Source: Pseudomonadota bacterium (lineage in GTDB: Bacteria; Desulfobacterota; Desulfobulbia; Desulfobulbales; CALZHT01). Taken from it: a stretch of 50,732 nt of DNA. The position numbers and the translations under genes were made by a program. Location: positions 1 to 50,732 of the forward strand of contig JAHJJF010000146.1 of NCBI GenBank assembly GCA_018823135.1. The letters are read 5' to 3'. Each line of letters starts with the position of its first letter. Position 1 is the first letter of the stretch. The notes beneath the pieces were generated by a model. That model made no database searches, had not been told where the DNA came from, and saw only the letters and a list, made by a program, of their open reading frames with translations. Positions 7,996-10,405 of this stretch are shown here, one piece after another.

Positions 7996-8290
7996 CCAGC
8001 CGTATATAATCGGTTTCATATTCGGGAGTATCGGCGGTTTGTATTATTTCTACGGACTTTTGCTCACGGTCCGGCGAGTGCCGGTGAGCAGGCATCCGAC
8101 GCGGCTTCTGGTAATGAGTTATTTGATCCGGCTATTTCCTGTGCTGCTTGGAATGATTTTTATTGCGAGAATAAATCCGGGGATGTTGATAACTTTTCTT
8201 GTTGGATTTTTCATGGTCCGATTCATTTTGACCAGGAGTTTGTCGGAGAATGGCAATCTAAACATCAATCGAGGCATTTTAAAAAAATAA
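7985..8290 (+). CDS. atpR: N-ATPase accessory membrane protein AtpR
   Basis: The gene encodes 101 residues with three predicted helices (about 5-25, 38-58 and 62-82). Arginines occur at the ends of or within the membrane segments (TVRRVPVSRHPTR, YLIRLF, MVRFILTR). AtpR is specific to N-ATPase operons, and its conserved membrane arginines have been proposed to interact with rotor carboxylates. I start it at ATG 7985 (an adjacent ATG at 7988 is equally possible), inside the end of atpQ; a longer upstream reading would lie wholly within atpQ and is unlikely. The stop TAA overlaps the atpB ATG by one base. Confidence 0.8.
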   Translation: MMNSQPYIIGFIFGSIGGLYYFYGLLLTVRRVPVSRHPTRLLVMSYLIRLFPVLLGMIFIARINPGMLITFLVGFFMVRFILTRSLSENGNLNINRGILKK

Positions 8291-9018
8291 TGCAGCTCAG
8301 CCCAGACAGCATCATTTTAATTCAACTTGAATTATTCTCGATTAATGCCACCATGGCCTTTACCTGGCTGGTCATGCTGATCATCACCCTTGGGTCATGG
8401 CTGGTTACCAGTCGTCTTTCCACCGGACCGGAAATTTCCCGCTGGCAGAATTTTCTCGAAAGCGTCATAACCATGATTCTCGGCCAGATCCATGATGTAA
8501 CCAGGCAGAATCCAAGGCGTTTCCTTGGATTCCTAGGCACCCTGTTCCTCTTTGTCGCCACCTGTAATCTGCTGTCGGTTGTCCCGGGATTTCAACCGCC
8601 CACCGGCTCCCTTTCAACAACCACGGCACTGGCGCTGTGCGTGCTGGTGGCGGTGCCGATATACGGTATTGCCGATTCCGGCTTCGGCGCTTATCTGAAG
8701 AATTATATTCAGCCCACGCCTTTGATGCTGCCTTTTAACATTACCGGGGAAATAAGCCGCACCCTTGCCCTGGCGGTCCGGTTGTTCGGCAATGTCATGA
8801 GCGGCAGCATGATCGGCGGCATTCTGCTGGCCATCGCGCCGCTTATATTTCCGGTTATCATGCAGCTTCTGGGCCTGCTTACCGGCCTTGTCCAGGCCTA
8901 TATTTTTGCAATTCTTGCCGCAGTTTATATCGCTGCCGGCTTGAAAATTCACGAAAGTAAGCAATCACAGGGCACTGCACCTTCGCACGATCAGGACAGC
9001 CCGCATAGCGGACTATAG
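8290..9018 (+). CDS. atpB: N-type ATPase subunit a
   Basis: Subunit a forms the ion half-channels beside the c-ring. The 242 residues contain five to six hydrophobic helices and the essential arginine R164 in the motif ALAVRLFGN, with GEISRT just before it. The membrane part ends near residue 220 with AAGLKIHES. The last roughly 19 residues (KQSQGTAPS onward) are polar, rich in Ser, His and Asp, and are encoded by the left arm and loop of a large palindrome (8958-9064). They look like an added tail and not family sequence. The stop TAG at 9016-9018 lies in the palindrome loop. Confidence 0.93.
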   Translation: MQLSPDSIILIQLELFSINATMAFTWLVMLIITLGSWLVTSRLSTGPEISRWQNFLESVITMILGQIHDVTRQNPRRFLGFLGTLFLFVATCNLLSVVPGFQPPTGSLSTTTALALCVLVAVPIYGIADSGFGAYLKNYIQPTPLMLPFNITGEISRTLALAVRLFGNVMSGSMIGGILLAIAPLIFPVIMQLLGLLTGLVQAYIFAILAAVYIAAGLKIHESKQSQGTAPSHDQDSPHSGL

Positions 9019-9064
9019 CGGCCAGTCCTGATCGTGCAAATCTACAGCACCCTGTGATTGCTTA
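8958..9064. repeat. Large palindrome (40-base arms) at the atpB end
   Basis: Arms at 8958-8997 and 9025-9064 pair at 34 of 40 positions, with ten perfect pairs at each outer and inner end; the loop is 27 bases. The left arm and loop are read as the C-terminus of AtpB, and the right arm is noncoding. As RNA this would be a very stable stem separating atpB from atpE. No U-tract follows, so it is not a standard terminator. Possible readings are an inserted palindromic repeat element or an mRNA processing or stability structure that raises atpE output. The rest of the spacer, 9065-9198, has only the atpE ribosome site. Confidence 0.85.
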
Positions 9065-9198
9065 TGGATTTTTTATTGTAGTTTCAAACGGGTGATTAAC
9101 CCATGGCCAGTCATCCATGATGAGAGGGCTGAAATTAATGGAAGGGAATAAACAACCCTGAGTAGTTACGGGAACAAACATAAAGAAGGAGTGAAGGT

Positions 9199-9477
9199 AT
9201 GGATAATTTAGCACTGGTTGCGGTAGCTTCGATTATTTCCGCTGGTATATGCATCGGTATCGGCGCCATTGGCCCGGCCCTGGGCGAAGGCCGCGCTCTT
9301 GCCCAGGCCCTGGCGTCAATTGCCCAGCAGCCTGACGAGACCAACACCATAACCCGCACTTTGTTTGTGGGGCTGGCAATGGTTGAGTCCACTGCAATTT
9401 ATTGTTTCGTGGTGTCGATGATTCTGATTTTTGCCAACCCTTTCTGGAAATATTTTTTAACAAAGGTCGGGGGATGA
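9199..9477 (+). CDS. atpE: N-type ATPase subunit c (rotor ring)
   Basis: The 92-residue hairpin of two helices (about 4-34 and 54-82) forms the membrane rotor ring. The first helix carries GPALGEG with E30, at the place of Gln32 in the Ilyobacter tartaricus Na+ ring. The second has MVEST-AIY with the ion-binding E63, S64, T65 and Y68. These match the Na+-ligand set plus the second carboxylate typical of N-ATPases. Na+ use is therefore plausible, although the biochemically studied Burkholderia N-ATPase ring was reported proton-specific, so the ion is not certain. The loop RQP-like turn reads AQQPDE. A strong AAGGAG precedes the start by about seven bases. Confidence 0.94.
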   Translation: MDNLALVAVASIISAGICIGIGAIGPALGEGRALAQALASIAQQPDETNTITRTLFVGLAMVESTAIYCFVVSMILIFANPFWKYFLTKVGG

Positions 9478-10290: not shown

Positions 10291-10405
10291 CAACATTGTC
10301 GGACTCGCAAAAAGCCCTCGTCGGACGCGTATTTCTCCTGTAACTTATTGAAATTACAAGAGGCGATAATTCAGCATCCGGCTTTTTGTGAAGCCATCAA
10401 CATTG
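10291..10405. repeat. Dispersed palindromic repeat between atpF and atpA
   Basis: The spacer 10216-10416 holds an imperfect palindrome. Arms at 10291-10316 and 10380-10405 match at 19 of 26 positions, including ten consecutive bases around CAAAAAGCC. CCACCAACATTG before it and CCATCAACATTG at its end also form a near-perfect direct repeat. Two inner motifs recur in the same order in the spacer 26540-26797: ATTGTCGG(A/T)CTCGCA, and AACTTATTGAAAT followed by GG(C/T)GATAATT. That shared order marks it as a dispersed element. It pushes atpA away from atpF, where this gene pair would normally be contiguous. Confidence 0.7.

Follow-up and report, generated by a model that had tools for sequence, protein, structure and literature searches.

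How did the last codons of an ATP synthase gene come to lie within a long palindrome, ahead of the gene for subunit c? The window, that is, the whole stretch of 50,732 nucleotides analysed, holds an N-type F-ATPase operon with atpE next after atpB, and the initial annotation had attributed the palindrome to a palindromic element inserted where atpB ends. The features concerned are as follows.

8290..9018, + strand: atpB, subunit a of the N-type F-ATPase (open reading frame)
8957..9065, + strand: stand-alone copy of the repeat family described below, 109 nt (97.8 bits with model R2)
8958-9004 and 9018-9064: inverted repeat with 47-nt arms, 83% complementary, 13 nt between them
8957..9004, + strand: left arm, translated into the AtpB tail
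9018..9065, + strand: right arm
9066..9198, + strand: extra spacer ahead of atpE
9199..9477, + strand: atpE, subunit c (open reading frame)

The palindrome and its relation to atpB

The reality of the palindrome was borne out by folding as well as by the complementarity of its arms: as RNA, positions 8940-9090 fold with -68.4 kcal/mol compared with -33.0 +/- 3.6 for shuffled sequences (z -9.9). An inverted-repeat scan of the window returned it as the sole strong structure, together with two weak ones. Around the start of atpA (10291-10405) there is a weak inverted repeat of 26 nt, its halves 63 nt apart. The stop codon of atpB, TAG at 9016-9018, does fall within the loop, as had been described, at positions 60-62 of the element; the AtpB residues beyond ..LKIHE are encoded by the element, the last 20 codons being formed by the left arm and loop. 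A run of six T residues (9069-9074) follows 4-5 nt beyond the hairpin, yet the terminator scan called no intrinsic terminator there. The start of atpE is preceded by AAGGAG at 9186-9191. A second, degenerate copy within 9066-9198 was considered by eye, with unconvincing support.

The nearest relatives of this AtpB (82-87% protein identity) carry no palindrome and have a gap of 11 nt between atpB and atpE, compared with 180 nt here; relatives with this 11-nt gap and without a copy at atpB are L192 and L193. Comparison of the AtpB C-termini agreed with the insertion reading as regards the palindrome, but the character of the tail proved not to be unusual. The tail is indeed polar, element-encoded and peculiar in sequence, as first noted, but the relatives' tails are also polar and unconserved (ending in EKSHENQPENNRKNSIQ, SQVSPENNATPETQ and others), and such tails are usual in N-type a subunits. 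Since the relatives' tails also vary, the element has swapped one variable tail for another. An identical tail and palindrome at atpB was sought in distant relatives and was not found there.

Other palindromes occur at this junction. In L194 and L195 (Desulfobia-type) the atpB-atpE gap holds an unrelated palindromic repeat (ACCACGAAG..CTTCGTGGT), which in L195 likewise encodes the last residues of AtpB, and in L206 a third unrelated hairpin (TCTGTAGCGCCGC..GCGGCGCTACAGA) lies immediately 3' of the atpB stop codon. Insertions of palindromes are tolerated, or favoured, at the atpB-atpE junction.

A dispersed repeat family in Desulfobulbales

The genome-wide search proposed at the outset yielded dispersed homologous copies, about eight to nine in the genome that contains the window (the host genome). 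Two of these were recovered by blastn, C126:100322-100400 and C18:3098-3176, with core identities to the atpB copy of 80% and 75% (E values of 1e-13 and 3e-8, respectively). Covariance model R1, built from three copies, added further copies in the host genome beyond this pair, and model R2, built from 29 copies, matched in C126, C146 (the atpB copy), C18 (two), C87, C59, C26, C55 and C72, with a weak additional match in C40. Of 38 genomes from the order Desulfobulbales, 32 gave matches to R1, several of them at least about 100, counts which may be up to twice the copy number because both strands of a palindrome match. In a phylum-wide sample searched with stricter filters, matches occurred in 8 of 148 genomes, three of which (including the host) belong to the same order; 17 matches were found in G213, which lies outside it.

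The copies read out are mostly 107-110 nt long, start with GTAANCGTTCA and end with TGAACGNTTAC, and terminal inverted repeats are present, with GTAANCGTTCA at either end. In being short, non-coding and dispersed, and in these ends, they resemble miniature inverted-repeat transposable elements (MITEs), which are non-autonomous. The atpB copy reads GTAAGC..CACAGGGCAC.. and is oriented towards its upstream gene as is usual in the family. A variant of 148 nt (L005, C68:63713-63860) has the family ends GTAACTATTCAACAG..TGCTGGATAGTTAC around a different core. Nothing reached the gathering score in Rfam, where one chance-level match to a plant miRNA model was returned, and no DNA resembling the repeat was found in the plasmid and phage collections searched. 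The family is apparently undescribed, nothing on it having been found in the open-access literature searched.

Stop codons and orientation

The position of the copies relative to genes was surveyed in 1.2 Mb of G006 (3,097,763 bp), where 77 copies were placed using our own gene calls. Thirty-seven of the 41 stand-alone copies begin between -4 and +8 nt from a stop codon, a range covering 6.5% of the available positions, although the P values for this tie are approximate because the gene calls are our own and the copies are not fully independent. At 19 stand-alone copies, about half, the GTAA of the element itself provides the stop codon. The copies at stops comprise 34 in sense orientation, none in antisense and three without an orientation call, and no stand-alone copy was found in a divergent intergenic region. 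The eight copies placed in the host genome all lie in sense, and for seven of them the start is no more than 8 nt from a stop codon, namely at proB, a DUF1015-like gene, dnaX, aspS, a hydrogenase gene, a Usp gene and one unnamed gene (names as read by us from the translations); atpB is the eighth. Old copies occur almost only at stop codons, and in one orientation.

Read in sense, the element supplies stop codons either through its own GTAA (offset -4) or through a TAG that lies about 51 or about 62 nt from its beginning, so that a gene in which the element inserts shortly ahead of the stop gains a short tail and a new stop. The atpB frame misses the GTAA, and its stop therefore falls in the loop (+62). 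Gene stops inside the hairpin also occur elsewhere, as at L124 (+62) and L127 (+51).

It may be, though we consider it rather doubtful, that the family recognises, or survives only at, stop sites in a fixed orientation, supplying the stop in about half of the cases and keeping its structure better on the antisense strand. If this were true, it would amount to stop-site-directed insertion, or to a domesticated gene-end device, across a whole bacterial order. The rule on stop codons and orientation is the part of these results most likely to surprise a specialist.

Mobility and turnover

Two forms of the element were distinguished in G006, at first in 400 kb and then in 1.2 Mb: the stand-alone hairpin and a composite of 151 nt, consisting of the hairpin and a 43-nt end (GTAANCGTTCACCAGGGGTACTAACC...), with GTAA ends (for example, G006:C1 94437-94587 and 235970-236142). 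The flanks of the composites match at 5.5 of 8 bases compared with 2.2 when shuffled (maximum 3.4), indicating 8-bp target duplications. As a class the stand-alone copies have almost none (2.3 of 8 compared with 2.0 shuffled); single copies with duplications are L128, G006:1178147 and C26 of the host genome. The flanks of the atpB copy, TCACGAAA and GGATTTTT, show no target duplication. Some stand-alone copies are decayed composites that retain a residual GGCCCGTTA tail. It is apparently in the composite form that the family has been mobile recently. Seventeen composites have good duplications (at least 7 of 8), of which ten lie at stops (eight sense, two antisense) and three in divergent regions.

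In G028, which belongs to the same genus as G006, 13 orthologous sites could be read; six are empty and seven carry a hairpin or a remnant, with the shared copies 143326, 201310 and 527327 broken or partly deleted. Copies are thus both gained and lost, and as a rule they are not strictly conserved over long periods. Two copies of the host genome lie within longer inverted repeats: the flanks of L062 (C18:27723) continue as AGCCCGGT..ACCGGGCT and those of L281 (C55:13359) as AATCCTGAGA..TCTCAGGATT, which would fit insertion into a terminator-like palindrome in both cases. No autonomous element with the ends of the composite was found in the 1.2 Mb of G006, and no IS66 DDE transposase was matched in the host genome.

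Insertion at the 3' end of atpB, as first proposed, is supported by the dispersed copies, the empty sites L192 and L193, the presence and absence of copies at orthologous positions and the 8-bp duplications of the 151-nt form. Very probably, then, the atpB palindrome arose by insertion and belongs to a palindromic repeat of Desulfobulbales that is dispersed, non-coding and MITE-like.

Covariation and strand asymmetry

The family alignment (A3) comprises 29 copies from more than 10 genera, and in 34 of its 41 pairs both partners have changed. The share of paired cells is 92.5% compared with 71.6% after shuffling and about 32% when the partners are slid, and 249 cells are compensated compared with 77 in the control. 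Columns 5 and 108, for instance, form GC, CG, AU or UA, unbroken in all 29 copies. These compensating changes lie between dispersed copies and therefore concern the family, not a native structure at atpB.

Such covariation can reflect selection, but it can also reflect template-switch repair of quasipalindromes. Template switching makes imperfect inverted repeats more perfect (PMC7202029), and the family is a caution against equating compensatory changes in a long palindrome with an RNA function. Where pairing fails on the gene strand, C.A (58) is more frequent than G.U (33, of which 23 fall at two columns that seem to be specific to a subfamily), and the antisense hairpin is therefore the more stable. 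It folds better in 28 of the 29 copies, the exception (L063) being a row aligned in reverse orientation; the atpB copy folds with -64.6 kcal/mol in sense and -81.7 kcal/mol in antisense. This asymmetry differs from what selection on a hairpin in the mRNA of the upstream gene would predict, and no simple mRNA-stabiliser model predicts it.

Targeting, selection and other origins

Within the insertion reading, two finer explanations of the stop-codon rule need to be weighed. According to the first, insertion is targeted to the stop or terminator region and prefers one orientation; the hairpins would otherwise be passive, their arms being renewed by template switching and not by selection. The young composites already sit at stops in 10 of 17 cases compared with the 6.5% expected, two copies in the host genome are flanked by terminator-like inverted repeats, G.U intermediates are few, and template switching at quasipalindromes is a known process (PMC7202029). 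Orientation, however, is locked in the old copies and not in the young ones, and no target consensus was identified. We put the chances of this explanation a little short of even.

The same difference between old and young copies speaks for the second explanation, that the hairpin is selected for a function at gene ends, whether as a stabiliser of mRNA 3' ends, an RNase III site or a partial terminator. Old stand-alone copies are oriented 34:0, whereas composites with intact duplications are mixed and in 3 of 17 cases lie in divergent regions; strongly diverged copies are still paired; and unrelated palindromes follow the atpB stop in L194, L195 and L206. The damage to the three shared copies in G028 runs counter to such selection, as does the strand asymmetry, which favours the antisense RNA. 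This explanation is tentative, and we give it somewhat less than an even chance. The rule on stops and orientation is sharp enough to allow a test between aimed insertion and selective retention, and the same question applies to REP, ERIC and YPAL sequences.

An origin as REP elements moved by a RAYT (Y1) transposase appears very unlikely. The copies are palindromic, dispersed and located at gene ends, and Y1 transposases occur in these genomes, but a copy lies nearby at just one of 30 Y1 loci, so that this origin was rejected; moreover, the ends are GTAA and not GTAG, the length is 107 nt compared with 20-40, and there is a composite with 8-bp duplications. A native, vertically inherited regulatory stem-loop between atpB and atpE, however strongly the structure folds ahead of the subunit c gene, is ruled out almost entirely by the closest relatives, which have a gap of 11 nt and no palindrome, and by the homologous copies at unrelated genes.

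Possible mechanism and significance

For the inserted repeat, a transposase with IS66-like end recognition may move the full form in trans, with insertion preferring the stop-codon region. Once inserted, the element would be co-transcribed with atpB and form a long intercistronic hairpin, through which the upstream mRNA may be protected or processed and atpE expression may become independent of atpB. Both the action of the hairpin and the identity of the moving enzyme are suggested here from sequence comparison. The AtpB tail is probably a side effect of the insertion that the protein tolerates. An odd tail of an ATP synthase subunit is thus accounted for, and a repeat family emerges that connects mobile hairpins with the ends of genes throughout Desulfobulbales.

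Comparison with known systems

Target duplications of 8 bp are regarded as a general rule in the IS66 family. They have been described for the members ISPpa5a and ISPpa7 (PMC3281130), and the GTAA ends and 8-bp duplications of the present element would suggest a link to this family. The termini of the IS66 copies found in G006 and G028, GTAAGCGCTCAGCAA and GTAAGCGCTCAATGA, are close to GTAANCGTTCANCAG; the two copies read have no duplication of their own. The present element differs in being without a transposase, and the similarity is confined to about 11-15 terminal bases.

GTAG REPs are linked to RAYTs. With them the present family shares the supply of stop codons, since GTAG REP termini often give flanking open reading frames their stop codon (PMC3733652). 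They differ in their length of 20-40 bp and their GTAG end, and the present family is not located at RAYT loci.

ERIC sequences (RU-1, 127 bp) differ in sequence, length and ends, and no stop-codon rule is known to us for them. In ECA3499 of Erwinia carotovora, RU-1 removed the normal stop and created a new C-terminal tail (PMC2759123), which parallels the AtpB tail reported here.

Yersinia palindromic sequences (YPAL) are said, in work of De Gregorio et al. from 2006, to produce target duplications and to lie closely downstream of stop codons, often at terminator-like sequences; they reportedly also raise upstream mRNA levels. Location just after stop codons is likewise seen in the present family. 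In PMC2759123, YPAL (about 167 bp) corresponds to RU-2, and the likeness extends to miniature palindromic insertion and to fusions with reading frames. The comparison is one of description, no sequence relation having been noticed, and the hosts belong to another phylum. The present family is unlike YPAL in its 107-nt core, its 151-nt composite, its near-absolute orientation and its own GTAA, which often serves as the stop codon. It is a new family within a recognised class of repeats, and its behaviour is closest to that of the enterobacterial MITEs of the YPAL/ERIC type, for which insertion at gene ends and the creation of new C-terminal tails have been documented (PMC2759123).
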